From a virus, in the IMG/VR virus record IMGVR_UViG_3300009180_000162, positions 1 through 29,073 of that record: DNA of 29,073 nucleotides. One strand, written 5' to 3'. The notes under the pieces are model-generated. The model was not told where the DNA came from. It did no database searches and saw nothing but the letters and a program-made list of their open reading frames with translations. Positions 1 to 7,601 of this stretch are shown piece after piece. Positions within the stretch are counted from its first letter, which is position 1. The number at the start of each line of letters is the position of its first letter. A program made the translations under genes and the position numbers.

Positions 1-37
1 ACAAGAAGCCGCTAGAATTCCCGAATAAGGATAGAAA

Positions 38-1012
38 ATGACTCAGCCGATTGACATTATCACCAGAGCCATGAAGGACATTGGCGCTGTTGCCGCAGGT
101 GAAGTGCCTACGGCTGATGAGGCGCAAGATGCGCTTGATATGCTGAATGATATGTGCGCTCAGTGGTCGAATGAAAACATGATGGTTTTCTATCGGTCAG
201 AGATCATATTTCAAACCACTCAGAACCAAGTTCAATACACCATTGGCCCAAGCGGTCAAATGGGTGCAACTTTTACAGGTTCAATTTCGGGAACGACTTT
301 GACTGTGCCTGCTGATGGAGTAACAGCTGGTGGCATCAATATTGGTATGACTTTGAGTGGCGCAGGCATCACTGCTGGGACGCGCATAGTAGCCTTTAAA
401 ACGGGCGCTGGCGGCAATGTTAACGAGGGTGGCACATACACTGTCAGTCCAAGCCAAACGGCCTCAAGCACAACAATTACAGCCTACTATGAGCGTCCTT
501 TGACGATTGAGTCAGGCTTTGTTCGTGTGGCAACCATGCAAGGCGGCTCAAACATTGCGGGTGGTTACTTAGACTATCCTTTGACAATTTTTAGCCTCGA
601 AGAATACGAATCTATCGGCATCAAGCAATTGAATGGCCCTTGGGCTAAAGGCATTTACTATCAGCCTTCAGAGTTGTTGGGGACGATCTATGTTTACCCA
701 AACCCTTCTCAGGGTGAGTTGCATCTGTTCACTCAGACAATCTTTAGAGAATTCCAAAGCCTGAATGACACCATCCAACTGCCCCAAGGCTATAACATGG
801 CTTTGCGGTGGTGCTTGGCTGAAAGACTTTTGCCGATGTTTGGTAAGGTAAATCCAGTTCAGATCGGAATGATTAATGCCTATGCAGCTCAAGGCAAAGC
901 AACAATCAAGCGCACCAATATGAAGCCAGTGCAAGTCGCACGATACCCTGACAGCCTGATGACGGGTCGGGCCAGAGATGCTGGGTTCATTATGGACGGA
1001 GGCTTCCGATAA
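38..1012 (+). CDS. Tail accessory factor, P22 gp4-like, with inserted beta domain
   Basis: Head-tail connector ring protein that docks under the portal and starts tail assembly in P22-like phages. The N-terminal part (opening [18 protein letters not shown], then the region with AQWSNEN) and the C-terminal part (from about residue 150) match the gp4 type I recognise. P22 gp4 is about 166 aa, but this protein has 324 aa. Much of the excess is a Gly/Thr/Ser-rich beta-type segment at about residues 76-150 (motifs [23 protein letters not shown]), which splits the usual YTIGP...IESGFVRV stretch. A Shine-Dalgarno AAGGA precedes the ATG by 7 bases, and the stop overlaps the next start (TAATG). An upstream frame ends in TAG at 13-15, so another gene probably lies just outside the window. 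Family assignment is good; the insert's role is inferred. Confidence 0.85.
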
Positions 1013-2490: not shown

Positions 2491-3788
2491 TGGCTACGGC
2501 TCCAAATGCCAACATTATTATTCCGTATTCACCTTTTTTGGATGAGAACACGGGACGTCCTTCTCAGCCGTGGCTGCAATGGTTATTAAATCCATCGGTT
2601 ATTTCTATAAATCTTGGCAGTGCGTTAGGTGTTACATCTGGAGGTACTGGCCTTACAACCATACCAACCAATGGTCAATTGCTAATTGGTAATGGTACTG
2701 GATACACGTTAAACACTTTAGGTTTTGGTGCTGGTATATCGGTTACAAATGGTTCAGGAACAATTAGCATTGCCAATACGGGTGTTTTAAGTTTTTCCGC
2801 TGGCACCACAGGGTTAACCCCAAGCGCCGCGACAACTGGTGTAGTTTCTTTGGCGGGGACTTTGATAGCCGTAAATGGCGGGACAGGGTTTTCTTCTTAC
2901 GCTGTGGGCGACTTGCTTTATGCCGACACCACAACTACTTTAGCCAAATTGCCTGACGTTGCTACGGGTAACGCTTTAATTTCAGGCGGTGTCAGCACGG
3001 CCCCAACGTGGGGAAAGATTGGCTTAACGACTCATGTAAGCGGCATTTTGCCTATTGCCAACGGCGGCACTGGCGCAACAACTAAGGCGGCAGCGTTTAA
3101 TGCCTTGTCGCCCATGTCCGCAGCGGGTGATGTAATCTATGGCGGCGTTAGTGGCGCAGGCACTGCATTGGCAATTGGTGCTGCTGGTCAAGTATTGACG
3201 GTCAACAGCGGTGCTACAGCACCACAATGGTCAACACCAACTACGGGAACTGTAACTAGCGTTTCGGCTTTAACACTTGGAACAAGCGGAACTGATCTTA
3301 GTTCAACGGTTGCAAATAGTACAACAACACCCGTAATTACTTTAAATGTACCAACAGCATCTGCCACTAATCGTGGTGTTTTAAGCTCTGCGGATTGGAC
3401 CACATTTAACGGCAAACAGCCTGCGGGTTCTTATATAACCGCATCTAGCACAGATACACTAACAAACAAGCGCATTACGCCAAGAGTTGCTACAGTCACT
3501 TCTAGTGCAACTCCAACGATTAACACAGATAATGTGGATGTTTATGGTTTGACGGCACAAGCAGTAGACATCACATCGTTTACGACCAACCTTTCAGGCA
3601 CTCCAACAAACGGGCAATTGTTGCGTATATATATTGTAGGTACGGCAGCCCGTGCAATCGCTTGGGGGTCTTCTTTTGAGGCATCAACTACTGCATTGCC
3701 AACTACTACCGTATTAACAAATAGGTTAGACGTTGGGTTTGTCTGGAATGCTGCAACTAGCAAATGGCGCTGTTTGGCGTATGCTTAA
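2490..3788 (+). CDS. Tail fibre or tail needle-type protein with GGTG repeats
   Basis: 432-aa fibrous structural protein. The N-terminus (ATAPNANIIIPYSPFLDE, followed by QPWLQWL) resembles virion-anchoring segments in tail fibres of environmental phages. The body is low-complexity Gly/Thr/Ser/Ala with recurrent GGTG motifs (SGGTGLT, NGGTGFSS, NGGTGATT) typical of trimeric fibre shafts, plus the common phrases TLTNKRITPRV and ATAPQWSTP. The last 100 residues form a compact beta-rich cap ending WNAATSKWRCLAYA. It directly follows the gp10 homologue, where P22 has its needle gene 26, so a needle/plug role is possible. Sequence style argues for a fibre shaft. An AGGGGA Shine-Dalgarno precedes the start. 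Confidence 0.75.
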   Translation: MATAPNANIIIPYSPFLDENTGRPSQPWLQWLLNPSVISINLGSALGVTSGGTGLTTIPTNGQLLIGNGTGYTLNTLGFGAGISVTNGSGTISIANTGVLSFSAGTTGLTPSAATTGVVSLAGTLIAVNGGTGFSSYAVGDLLYADTTTTLAKLPDVATGNALISGGVSTAPTWGKIGLTTHVSGILPIANGGTGATTKAAAFNALSPMSAAGDVIYGGVSGAGTALAIGAAGQVLTVNSGATAPQWSTPTTGTVTSVSALTLGTSGTDLSSTVANSTTTPVITLNVPTASATNRGVLSSADWTTFNGKQPAGSYITASSTDTLTNKRITPRVATVTSSATPTINTDNVDVYGLTAQAVDITSFTTNLSGTPTNGQLLRIYIVGTAARAIAWGSSFEASTTALPTTTVLTNRLDVGFVWNAATSKWRCLAYA

Positions 3789-3790
3789 AT

Positions 3791-4114
3791 ATGACAACAA
3801 TTACTTTAACAAATTCAAAAAAAGATGTAATTATGAATATTGCTAAACTTACATTTAGTTATAAATATAACAACACAAATAATGCAATATATAAAGCAAA
3901 TGTAGGCGAGGGACTTTTAAGGCATGAGCATACATTTGCCCACACCACCGTGTGCGTTCAAGGTAAAATTATTGTTCGTAAAGAAAACAAAGAAATAATA
4001 ATCAGCGAGGGTGAAAACCCGTTACTTCTTACTGAAAATGAATGGCATGAAATAGAAGCGCTTGAAGATAATACTATTTTTATAAACCAATTTCCATTTG
4101 GAATGAAGGAATAA
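3791..4114 (+). CDS. Small cupin-like protein in the tail cassette
   Basis: 107 aa counted from the first ATG after the fibre stop; a later ATG at 3833 is equally possible, and neither has a clear Shine-Dalgarno. The middle contains HEHTFAHTTVCVQGKIIVR and ENEWHEIEALED, the His-X-His plus downstream His spacing of a single-domain cupin barrel. Function is unknown. Proteins of this type sit beside fibre genes in other phages and may be minor tail parts or assembly aids; that is inference. The gene is far more AT-rich than its flanks (many AAT, ATA, TTA codons), which suggests acquisition with the neighbouring receptor-recognition genes. It is 2 bases upstream of the next gene. Confidence 0.6.
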   Translation: MTTITLTNSKKDVIMNIAKLTFSYKYNNTNNAIYKANVGEGLLRHEHTFAHTTVCVQGKIIVRKENKEIIISEGENPLLLTENEWHEIEALEDNTIFINQFPFGMKE

Positions 4115-4116
4115 TT

Positions 4117-4305
4117 ATGGCTATTCTTGCAGTTATTAACTCAACTACAAATGAATTAGTGTCCACAATCGTGGCAGAGTTAACTGATTATTGCCCTGAC
4201 GGATGTTACTTTGTAGAACTTCCTCCAGACCATACATGGGTTAAAGGTGAAATTGTTTCTTACGCTAGTTTAAAACCTGAATCAACACCATTGCAGGTAT
4301 TTTAA
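4117..4305 (+). CDS. Hypothetical 62-aa protein between fibre genes
   Basis: Short protein with no domain I recognise. It contains two Cys (DYCPDGCYF) and a central Trp (HTWVKGEIV). A GAAGGA Shine-Dalgarno sits 6 bases before the ATG, and the stop overlaps the next ATG (TAATG), so translation is probably coupled to the large adhesin gene. Position and coupling fit a small tail-fibre accessory or chaperone, but the sequence alone does not show this. It shares the AT-rich composition of its neighbours. Confidence 0.6.
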   Translation: MAILAVINSTTNELVSTIVAELTDYCPDGCYFVELPPDHTWVKGEIVSYASLKPESTPLQVF

Positions 4306-7067
4306 TGCCAGTAATTGTTCTTACATCGGGTACGCAATGGCTTGTCCCGCCAGATTGCAGAACAGCAACAATTGAAGCTGTTGGCGCTGGCAGCTATAAT
4401 GGCGGATCATATGCAAAATCTACCAATGTATCTTTTACTCCGGGATCATTTGTTAATATAAGTATTGCAGCAGGCGCAAGCGGTGGTAAAACTTGGTTGA
4501 ATACTAGTTCAACTCCAAGGTATATGCCAAAATATATAACTTGGTCTGGCACTCAATTTGTTGCACTTGACAACACAAATAATATTATTACAAGTCCCGA
4601 TGGTGTTACATGGACACAGAAGCCAGGGCTTACAAGCATTTTTAACACAGAGTATTTGTCTATTGCCGCCAATGGATCAAACATTGTTGTCTGTCCAGAA
4701 AGTAGCGCTTTTACCCAAGTTGCAATATCAAGCGGCACTAGCTGGTCCGCAGTTACATTACCAACTGGCGCTTATATTAAATATCCAGTGTGGTTTGTAA
4801 ACGGTACTTTTATTGTTAGTAGCATTAACAATTCCGCTTTTCCGCCAACTATTTATCAATTTGCAAGCACCGACAACGGCGCATCTTGGACAACCACAAG
4901 TACAAGAGTTACTAGTTCTGCACCAAATCGTATTGAATACAATGCAAGCCCAGTAATTTACGAAAATTCTTTATACACAACTGTAGGCTCTTATATTCCA
5001 ACTAGTGGACCAACACCATTTGGCGTAGGTTATTCTTCATCAGCAAGTGGAGCGCAAACTATTATTACACAGGCCACTTTAGGATTTACTGGTTATGTAG
5101 TAAGTGCTATTGCTTATGGCGCAGGTCTGTATGTTGTAGTCGGTGAAAATGGGCTTATATCCACAGCCCCAACTTTGACCTCCGCATGGACTCCAAGAAC
5201 ATCTGGTGTTACTGATGGTTTATCAAGTGTAATTTTTGATGGAACTAAATTTATTGTTGCTATTTCTGGTGGATTAACAGGTTCTAACTATTATCGAGTT
5301 TTAGTAAGCAGTGATGGCATTACTTGGACACTTTCCACAACAACATCACCAGTATCTGGACTTGTTCCCGCCAATTCACTATTTAATACTGGGTCTGGTA
5401 TATATGCAATAGCGGGTATTTCAATTTCAAAAACCATTAATAGTGGGACCAGTTGGAGTCAAATATTTATTGGAGACGGTAGTCCTCTTTCTGTGAGCAC
5501 CGGAGTTTCTGCTGCTGGCGGTGGTATTTCTCCATTAGTTCAATCCATAAATAGTATATATACATCTGGAGCCGGAAATTTTTACCAAGGCGGCACAGTA
5601 GGAGTTACCAGTATTGGTTGTTGTTTTGATGTTCAAGGTGGATTTGGCGGCGGCGCTGGACCCAATGGGCAAGGCGGCAATGGTGGAGATTACGGCGCTT
5701 ACGGTGCTGGCGGTGGTGGAGCGGCTAACTATGGTGGGAATGGAGCTGTTGGCGGCGGCTACGTTGGCGGCTTCGGTGGCACAAGTCGAACAGGTTCTTT
5801 GGGCGGTGCAGGAGGTACTATTTCCACTCCCGGTGGTAGTGGAACAAATGGTTCTGGGGGCGGTGGCGGTGTAGCCACTTATTCTGCTGGTGGAGCAGGT
5901 AGCCTTGAAACTATTACTGCATGGACAGATTTTGCGGGGGCAACTTATGGAGTTGGCTCGGGTGGTGGAGGGCAAAATGGACCGGCAGGCGGCCCCGGAG
6001 GCGGGGGCACTGGCACTTTAGGCCAAGGCATAATTGTTATTACATATACGTCACAGCCATTATCAGGCACGTATACGCAAGTAGTTACATCAACCCAAAA
6101 CATTTATGTCCCATCTGGTGTGACAAGTTTAGTTGCTAGAGCTATTGGCCCCGGATCACAAGGTGGTAGATACACGGGAGTTTTAGAAAACGGCGGTGGT
6201 GGCGGTGCATATGCAGAGTCAACTATAACAAGCCCAGCATCAGGTGCTGGATACGCCAATGTGCCAAGTGCAAGCGTTTGGGGTGCAACAGCGGACACTT
6301 GGTTTCGGGCATCGGGCAATACTGCCCCAACAACATCTGCAGAAGGAGCGCTTGCAAAAGGCGCATCTAACGGCACAGGTGGCGCTGCGTCACCGTCAAG
6401 CATTGGTAGCACAACATATGCTGGCGGCAACGGCGGCGCTTCAATCTTGCAAACCTCAACCACAAACAAGCAGCGTGGTGGCGGTGGTGGCGGTGCGGCT
6501 GGTCCTTCCGGTGTAGGCAGGAACGGCGGATCGGCTTCAACTGCTGCGGCAACTTCAGCAAACGGTGGTGGCGGTGGTGGTGGCGGCACAAATGCAGGAA
6601 GCTCAACCGTTGGCGGCACGCCTGTTATTACAACCACAACCGGAGGCGTGGGCGGCACTGGCCCAACAGGTACAGCAGGCGGGTCAGGCGGAACAACAAC
6701 TGTTGTTGCTGGCGCTGGTTCAAACGGTTCTGGTGGTGGTGGTGGTTCTGCATCTACCTCCACAACAAACATTGCATTGCGACATGGCGCGGCGGGTAGC
6801 CAATTTAATGTTTCTACACCCATCGCATGGGTGTCTAATGGTATAAATTACGGCCCTGGTTCTGGCGGTGGTGGCGGTGGTATTGGTGTATCCACCACTT
6901 TGTTTGGTAATGGCGGTGCTGCGGGAGGTTATGGCGGGGGAGGCGGTGCTGCTTCTGGAACTACTGCTGCGGCTGGCGTTCGCGGATCAGGCACTGGAGG
7001 ACTTGTTGTTCTTACTTACACTGTTGTTGGTGTTACAAACACCTCCAATTTTTTCTTAATGTTTTAA
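4305..7067 (+). CDS. Large Asp-box plus polyglycine tail adhesin
   Basis: 920-aa predicted receptor-binding tail protein. Residues 1-60 and about 588-680 are two copies of a glycine-rich domain (opening GTQWLVPPDCRTATIEAVGA and, in the second, VPSGVTSLVARAIGPGSQGG). Between them, roughly residues 70-400 carry Asp-box/BNR repeats (SPDGVTW, STDNGASW, SSDGITW, NSGTSW), which normally form a beta-propeller. Residues about 440-580 and 620-895 are almost pure Gly/Ser/Ala/Thr with GGGGG runs, reminiscent of the polyglycine-II helix bundles in phage adhesin tips such as S16 gp38. A final Gly-poor stretch ends NFFLMF. It is the last large tail gene before the ejection genes, where receptor-recognition proteins are common. 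The host-receptor role is inferred; the domain architecture is visible. Confidence 0.75.
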   Translation: MPVIVLTSGTQWLVPPDCRTATIEAVGAGSYNGGSYAKSTNVSFTPGSFVNISIAAGASGGKTWLNTSSTPRYMPKYITWSGTQFVALDNTNNIITSPDGVTWTQKPGLTSIFNTEYLSIAANGSNIVVCPESSAFTQVAISSGTSWSAVTLPTGAYIKYPVWFVNGTFIVSSINNSAFPPTIYQFASTDNGASWTTTSTRVTSSAPNRIEYNASPVIYENSLYTTVGSYIPTSGPTPFGVGYSSSASGAQTIITQATLGFTGYVVSAIAYGAGLYVVVGENGLISTAPTLTSAWTPRTSGVTDGLSSVIFDGTKFIVAISGGLTGSNYYRVLVSSDGITWTLSTTTSPVSGLVPANSLFNTGSGIYAIAGISISKTINSGTSWSQIFIGDGSPLSVSTGVSAAGGGISPLVQSINSIYTSGAGNFYQGGTVGVTSIGCCFDVQGGFGGGAGPNGQGGNGGDYGAYGAGGGGAANYGGNGAVGGGYVGGFGGTSRTGSLGGAGGTISTPGGSGTNGSGGGGGVATYSAGGAGSLETITAWTDFAGATYGVGSGGGGQNGPAGGPGGGGTGTLGQGIIVITYTSQPLSGTYTQVVTSTQNIYVPSGVTSLVARAIGPGSQGGRYTGVLENGGGGGAYAESTITSPASGAGYANVPSASVWGATADTWFRASGNTAPTTSAEGALAKGASNGTGGAASPSSIGSTTYAGGNGGASILQTSTTNKQRGGGGGGAAGPSGVGRNGGSASTAAATSANGGGGGGGGTNAGSSTVGGTPVITTTTGGVGGTGPTGTAGGSGGTTTVVAGAGSNGSGGGGGSASTSTTNIALRHGAAGSQFNVSTPIAWVSNGINYGPGSGGGGGGIGVSTTLFGNGGAAGGYGGGGGAASGTTAAAGVRGSGTGGLVVLTYTVVGVTNTSNFFLMF

Positions 7068-7077
7068 GGATATAAAC

Positions 7078-7137
7078 ATGGCACTCATCAAATCAATTGA
7101 TACTGACTACGGCATTCCAGCTCAATACTGGATTTGA
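7078..7137 (+). CDS. 19-codon ORF: leader peptide or truncated tail gene remnant
   Basis: ATG with a good Shine-Dalgarno (TTAAGGATATAAAC) encodes MALIKSIDTDYGIPAQYWI and then stops at TGA. The opening looks like the start of longer phage tail-region proteins I have seen (MALIKSIDT...YG...A.YW), so it may be the stump of a truncated gene. The next gene's TTG start overlaps this stop (TTGA), so ribosomes finishing here could reinitiate on it. Either a remnant or a translational-coupling leader; I cannot decide from sequence. Confidence 0.45.
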   Translation: MALIKSIDTDYGIPAQYWI

Positions 7138-7601
7138 CGGTGCACAGGACGCATAACGTGAACGATTTAAATTTGCCAACATTTGTATCCCGTGAGCAAG
7201 TTGAGCGATTGCAGGGTGAAATGGTAAAAATGCCACAGGTTGAATTGGCAACTGAGCATTGTTTTAGCCCGGGTATGTATATGAGAAAAGTCTTTCGTCC
7301 AGCTGGCACATTGATTGTGGGAAAAGTTCATAAAGAACCCCACTTTTTTTTATGTGCTAAAGGAGAGATAATTGCTTGGACAGAAAGCGGCATGAAACGG
7401 CTTCAGGCTGGAGACGTTGTGGAAAGCAGGCCAGGAACTAAGCGGGTGACGTTGGCTATGACGGATGCAATTGGCATCACCATACACAGAACTGACAAGA
7501 TCGATCTTGATGAAATTGAAGCTGAGTTGATTGAGCCAAATACAACCGCACTTTTTGATGCCAATAATGACATTAAAAAATTAAGAATTGAAGGGGAATA
7601 A
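7134..7601 (+). CDS. Cupin-fold phage protein
   Basis: 155 aa if it starts at the TTG overlapping the preceding TGA; in-frame GTG codons at 7140 and 7158 are alternatives, and no ATG occurs before codon 30. The central part (HKEPHFFLCAKGEIIAW, GMKRLQAGDVVESRPGTKRV, GITIHRTDK) has the pattern of a cupin barrel, with the conserved G-D-V turn. No catalytic role is evident. The last 35 residues are acidic. Its place between the adhesin and the ejection genes suggests a virion or assembly protein. It is the second cupin-like gene in this module. Confidence 0.65.
   Translation: MTVHRTHNVNDLNLPTFVSREQVERLQGEMVKMPQVELATEHCFSPGMYMRKVFRPAGTLIVGKVHKEPHFFLCAKGEIIAWTESGMKRLQAGDVVESRPGTKRVTLAMTDAIGITIHRTDKIDLDEIEAELIEPNTTALFDANNDIKKLRIEGE

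Follow-up and report, generated by a model that had tools for sequence, protein, structure and literature searches.

The locus described here raises the question of how a viral protein comes to hold an Asp-box propeller between stretches of glycine-rich tip material, and how such a protein would be fixed to the virion. It lies in a window of 29,073 nucleotides, by which we mean the whole stretch of DNA analysed (positions 1 to 29,073 of IMG/VR virus record IMGVR_UViG_3300009180_000162). The genes of the window point to a short-tailed phage. Portal and terminase genes are present (named by eye), an SU10-adaptor-like protein is also encoded, and the head closure protein Hc3 (PHROG match) shares 67% identity with its counterpart in a Manatee Spring podovirus. 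The fibre trunk gene P0004 is followed by a cupin-like gene (3764-4114), by the small gene P0006 and then by P0001, with two genes between trunk and adhesin (Table 1).

Two side observations concern this neighbourhood. Cupin-like small proteins are encoded on both sides of the adhesin gene. For the second of them (7134-7601), PHROGs gives a short tail fibre protein as match, and relatives occur in phages of Vibrio and Bordetella. Residues 76-150 of the SU10-adaptor-like protein (38-1012) form a module of about 70 residues that PHROGs also detects in tail-fibre proteins; similar modules were seen by eye within both the adaptor and the head closure protein encoded at another locus (L091, 7055-8026 and 8036-10537).

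Table 1. Features of the fibre locus, in coordinates of the window
Feature	Coordinates	Residues	Strand	Remarks
P0004	2490..3788		+	fibre trunk
P0004 C-terminal domain, candidate socket	3420-3785	311-432	+	putative role
P0006	4117..4305		+	62 aa; small gene; family preceding glycine-rich adhesins
P0001, putative composite tip adhesin	4305..7067		+	920 aa, stop codon included
Domain A, N-terminal part	4305..4514	1-70	+	last residues GGKTWLNTSS
Nested Asp-box beta-propeller (predicted fold)	4515..5480	71-392	+	cut scan, motif counts, AlphaFold2/Foldseek/VIA
Domain A, glycine-rich continuation	5481..6053	393-583	+	alignments, cut scan
Domain B, second complete glycine-rich domain	6054..7040	584-912	+	alignments
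C-terminal tag NTSNFFLMF	7038..7064	912-920	+	shared C-terminal motif

Duplicated glycine-rich domains and their relation to known fibre tips

P0001 is intact, being one open frame, and it starts straight with a glycine-rich domain, having no N-terminal anchor. When the middle was left out of domain A (residues 1-64 joined to 390-585), the alignment with residues 585-915 ran end to end. The C-terminal parts of the two domains gave a local score of 299, compared with 172.7 ± 13.7 for 500 shuffles of the same composition (none as high), and the N-terminal parts scored 53 compared with 31.5 ± 6.0 (2 of 500 as high). Glycine makes up 38% of residues 396-583 and 32% of residues 651-900. The duplication proposed by the first-pass annotation is thus real, and only its limits had to be redrawn: the second copy, placed there at residues 588-680, is a whole domain from 584 to about 912, and the first, placed at 1-60, comprises 1-70 plus 393-583. 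The same annotation had described a composite adhesin, which agrees with a protein of one propeller and two glycine-rich domains that is probably a receptor-binding tip protein; the two recognition surfaces that it thought possible are plausible. It did not remark on the exact nesting within a single loop, nor on the C-terminal tag, the trunk gene upstream or the partner gene at 4117-4305.

P0001 itself had no Pfam match (E ≤ 1) and no PHROG family. Pattern searches of viral and genome contigs with P0001, and likewise with P0024, found no close relative, and tblastn of P0001 in phages returned propeller fragments only. A profile of the glycine-rich domain (A3, seven rows, one of them domain B) matched the Pam3 fibre tip (7YFW/7YPX, E 2.8e-7), and judged by this profile the glycine-rich domains of P0001 are related to that tip (PDB 7YFW). 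For Gly_rich_2 (PF21722), P0001 gave no match at E ≤ 1 and its tandem relative L351 gave E 0.011, below the cut-off.

In the Pam3 paper (PMC9608196), gp24 is described with a glycine-rich tip of TNF-like sandwich, glycine-rich motifs near beta-sheet in their dihedral angles, a single glycine-rich domain, its own N-terminal baseplate-docking helix and a partner chaperone gene. P0001 likewise has a small partner gene, P0006; unlike gp24, it has its glycine-rich domain twice in tandem, with a propeller nested in one copy and a tag at the C-terminus, and its trunk is encoded by a separate gene. Likeness extends to gp38 of T2, S16 and PP01, which PMC12892980 presents as a separate adhesin at the tip, mounted on a fibre and bearing glycine-rich motifs as well as variable loops (PGII being reported in S16 gp38). 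According to the same paper, gp38 is attached by its N-terminus, whereas the candidate attachment element of P0001 is C-terminal. The profile matches of the glycine-rich domain did not include gp38, which excludes nothing.

A C-terminal tag behind the fibre trunk

Relatives of the trunk adjoin adhesins of several unrelated folds that end in a common tag, with the consensus N-[TN]-[SG]-N-F-F-x-[ML]-[FM] and the core NFFx(M/L)F. Among 85 distinct trunk C-termini, 13 were left out for having too little sequence behind them, and a tagged ORF lay within 3 kb behind the trunk in 46 of the 72 evaluable ones; this count covered ORFs behind the trunk, and P19250A_0021, upstream of its trunk, is not included in it. 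The other 26 neighbourhoods had no tag; some hold near misses (NMLLMF, KFFFSF, GMLFLFGP), and in three of them the matched trunk domain is not C-terminal. In loci L062-L220, among ORFs with a length of 150 aa or more, the tag was carried by 46 of the 174 that lie downstream of a trunk and by 3 of the 1040 elsewhere (Fisher p 7e-38, which overstates independence, the counts including related sequences). Two of these three are chance-like, and the third is P19250A_0021, just upstream of its trunk. A reciprocal scan of DNA for the tag pattern gave at least 120 matching stretches. Among the matches listed, 11 end an ORF of at least 150 aa and 109 do not; 3 of the 11 run off the contig, and the trunk domain lies upstream in 7 of the 8 others, these matches being partly dependent (L258 and L337 are adhesins already found in the trunk searches, L249 and L327 are near-identical).

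Pfam searches with eight tagged proteins named LamG in three (L215, L204, L188) and CBM96 in one (L165), all four above the cut-off or nearly so, and left four without a name. The tag is common to LamG, CBM96, glycine-rich and unnamed folds, where adhesin kinds were counted by Pfam and by eye because multi-domain proteins bridge many families into one BLAST cluster. Its codons vary synonymously, both serine codon classes included, which indicates a constraint on the peptide and not on the DNA. In one case (L215) two tagged adhesins of 261 aa (3953-4735 and 4958-5740), the first of them LamG, stand in tandem behind one trunk. Mycobacterium cluster C phages have a relative of the trunk domain, and in phage Alice no tagged ORF was found downstream.

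Structure models were made for the trunk domain and the propeller separately. The C-terminal domain of P0004 was modelled as a confident beta fold with weak structural neighbours (Z 6-8), among them TSP4 of CBA120 (Foldseek E 2.5e-3, VIA Z 6.7) and, weaker still, T4 gp9 (Z 4.6). Both TSP4 and gp9 have docking roles, that of gp9 being given in the title of its structure entry as well. From the gene association we infer that the tag may dock interchangeable adhesins on a fibre of the P0004 type. We give about an even chance to the reading that trunk domain and tag form a widespread socket and plug for exchanging adhesins of unrelated folds on one kind of fibre and that the nesting turn of the glycine-rich domain takes up whole binding domains as a second module, both being realised in P0001.

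The tag could instead be an assembly element with no part in docking, for instance a peptide for trimerisation, chaperone recognition or capping of the fold, which would accompany this neighbourhood by chance. We regard this as the strongest of the alternatives, though a doubtful one. The tag is short and hydrophobic, the Pam3 fibre needs a chaperone (PMC9608196), and the space between trunk and adhesin is often occupied by a small partner gene, either a member of the P0006 family or some other small ORF. P0006 could be aligned with a family of small ORFs located ahead of glycine-rich adhesin genes; a Pfam search with P0006 gave no match, and the protein may be a chaperone. However, the folds that share the tag need no common fold cap, and tagged adhesins are also found directly behind the trunk at offsets of a few bases, leaving no space for a partner gene. 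Moreover, the tag stood behind 40 of 52 evaluable trunks ending in A vs 2 of 10 ending in V, as if the ends were matched. This difference is a hint of a trunk end fitted to the tag, and common descent could also give it. Behind trunks ending in GVA/GTC or V other tails recur, TSLSRxV and TSGSITF (L183, L190, L193 and L197, L201 being similar; L101, L212), which are perhaps other plug classes.

It is improbable that P0001 is a second fibre attached elsewhere on the virion, for instance through the cupin-like P0007, and not on P0004. P0004 and P0001 are separated by two genes and PHROGs places P0007 with the short tail fibre proteins, both of which would suit such an arrangement, but P0001 lacks an N-terminal anchor, the N-terminus of P0004 is common to the tailspike of MW202674 (by eye), and the association of tag and trunk genes speaks against it. 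Docking of P0001 on P0004 is the reading that we prefer.

The propeller and its nesting in domain A

Within residues 61-400 of P0001, the Asp-box regex gave five matches at four distinct sites (97, 188/189, 335, 377), where 0.015 were expected and none of 5000 shuffles reached five; the regex was composed after the sequence had been viewed. The AlphaFold2 model of the propeller (m84f9ad548209, 28 aligned sequences, single chain) has confident strands at roughly residues 70-345 and a mean pLDDT of 71.6. Its last 50 or so residues were not resolved, and the number of blades (seven blade-like units counted by eye) is thus provisional. With this model the top Foldseek matches were YCF48 structures (best E 4.7e-8), and VIA matched many propellers, sialidases among them (best Z 19.5, 271 aligned, rmsd 3.9). 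Motif counts and the three structural methods agree on an Asp-box propeller. The region of about 330 residues that had been reported to split the first glycine-rich copy is borne out, with an insert of 322 aa in the cut scan.

The description of this region as sialidase-like holds for the fold and not for sialidase features. Sialidases carry an R-I/V/L-P motif and an arginine triad, and YCF48 is not known to be an enzyme. No R[IVL]P motif was found in residues 63-400, the insert has five arginines in all, and it gave no Pfam sialidase or BNR match. Since the motif is absent, binding is likelier than catalysis, and on these sequence features the propeller is more likely a binding domain than an enzyme. 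A glycan-cleaving depolymerase would fit the sialidases and arabinanases among the VIA matches (Z 17-19), but the missing motif, the few arginines, the absent Pfam match and the YCF48 structures at the top of the Foldseek results make it quite unlikely. Asp-box units related to the insert also occur in tail-region proteins of Limnohabitans phage DC31 (XLZ15464.1) and Synechococcus phage S-CBWM1 (ATW62803.1), where, unlike in P0001, the propeller stands outside any glycine-rich domain (by eye).

A single loop of domain A holds the Asp-box propeller. In a cut scan against 11 relatives, the summed optimum placed the insert at residues 71-392, and cutting out about this segment increased the score with each of the 11 (best cuts per relative: start 67-73, end 376-394). 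Unsupervised global alignments did not put the gap there, and the explicit cut scan was required. The loop at this turn measures 11-18 residues in 18 of 19 distinct loops and 333 in P0001. Freed of its insert, domain A matches propeller-free relatives end to end. Neither L351 (748 aa) nor L352 (638 aa) has a propeller, and both are built as A-B tandems; domain A of P0001 is nearest to A of L351 (467 for the joined domain; shuffled 154.6 ± 15.0) and domain B to its B (525; shuffled 208.4 ± 15.3). A further propeller-free tandem, L310, also has the NFFLMF end and scored 621 with the cut and 542 with the uncut P0001.

A second nested case was found when 54 distinct glycine-rich ORFs were scanned. 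Nesting was strong in two, P0001 and P19250A_0021 (summed gains of 331 and 292, next best 23), and 47 had no candidate segment, a number that includes skipped ORFs of more than 2000 aa. P19250A_0021, annotated as 'PE family protein', belongs to the cultured Methylophilaceae phage P19250A. Like P0001, it has a foreign binding domain nested in a glycine-rich domain, it ends in a tag (NTGNFFFMF), and a gene nearby carries the same trunk C-terminal domain as P0004; it differs in the kind of nested domain, in a gene position upstream of the trunk and in extra N-terminal sequence. Its insert, at about residues 282-488, is related to stand-alone adhesins of other phages (e.g. L198, E 3e-6). The placement is less sharp than in P0001, with best cuts starting at 249-303 and ending at 460-490 and with a cut of 255-463 outscoring 282-488 in 12 of 12 relatives; possibly it is the same turn as in P0001.

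An assembly artefact, or a recent insertion without function, is a very improbable source of the nesting, for although the exact arrangement of P0001 was found in one sequence only, the frame is single and open, the joints are clean in the cut scan, the third-position GC of the insert (0.23) equals that of the N-terminal part of domain A and of P0006 (both 0.24) with no sign of recent foreign origin, and P19250A offers an independent nested case.

The first-pass annotation had called the combination of propeller and glycine-rich material unusual. The bare combination is not unique, since a tail protein of 2380 aa (L012:700-7842) holds Gly_rich_2, Asp-box propellers and LamG together; what is unusual is a propeller set inside the glycine-rich domain itself. 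In L012 it is LamG, in P0001 the glycine-rich domain, that holds a nested propeller. The first propeller of L012 splits a LamG match in two (profile 3-64 ahead, 68-115 behind), and for a second such nesting the C-terminal side was unsupported.

Proposed model and its meaning

We give a probability of roughly 0.72 to the reading that P0001 is a distal receptor-binding adhesin of tandem glycine-rich domains with a nested propeller, fixed to P0004 by its tag. P0001 would be built from two tandem domains of the Pam3 gp24 kind, with the propeller inserted into the short turn behind the conserved G-G-x-T-W-x-N strand of domain A. The glycine-rich domains would trimerise and display variable loops, and the propeller may give each chain another surface for ligand binding. 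Encoded apart from the trunk, the protein would be held on P0004 through its C-terminal NFFLMF, a putative plug common to unrelated adhesins in the same genomic slot. The architecture, the nesting site, the predicted propeller fold, the family of the glycine-rich domains and the link between tag and trunk genes come out of the computations, whereas adhesin role, trimer, second surface, docking and the function of P0006 are inferred. Every part of P0001 is of a known kind, and literature searches in open-licence papers found no report of either a tag common to unrelated adhesins or a glycine-rich tip with a propeller set into it.

Fibre tips determine which bacteria are hosts, and the exchange of unrelated tips between phages is poorly understood. 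If the model is true, the pairing of a short C-terminal tag with a single trunk domain would give a simple, testable rule of tip exchange, and the tag could serve as a marker for adhesins where viral genomes lack annotation. As the nested propeller indicates, a glycine-rich tip is able to hold a complete second binding domain, and the same kind of nesting in cultured phage P19250A opens both nesting and tag to experiment.
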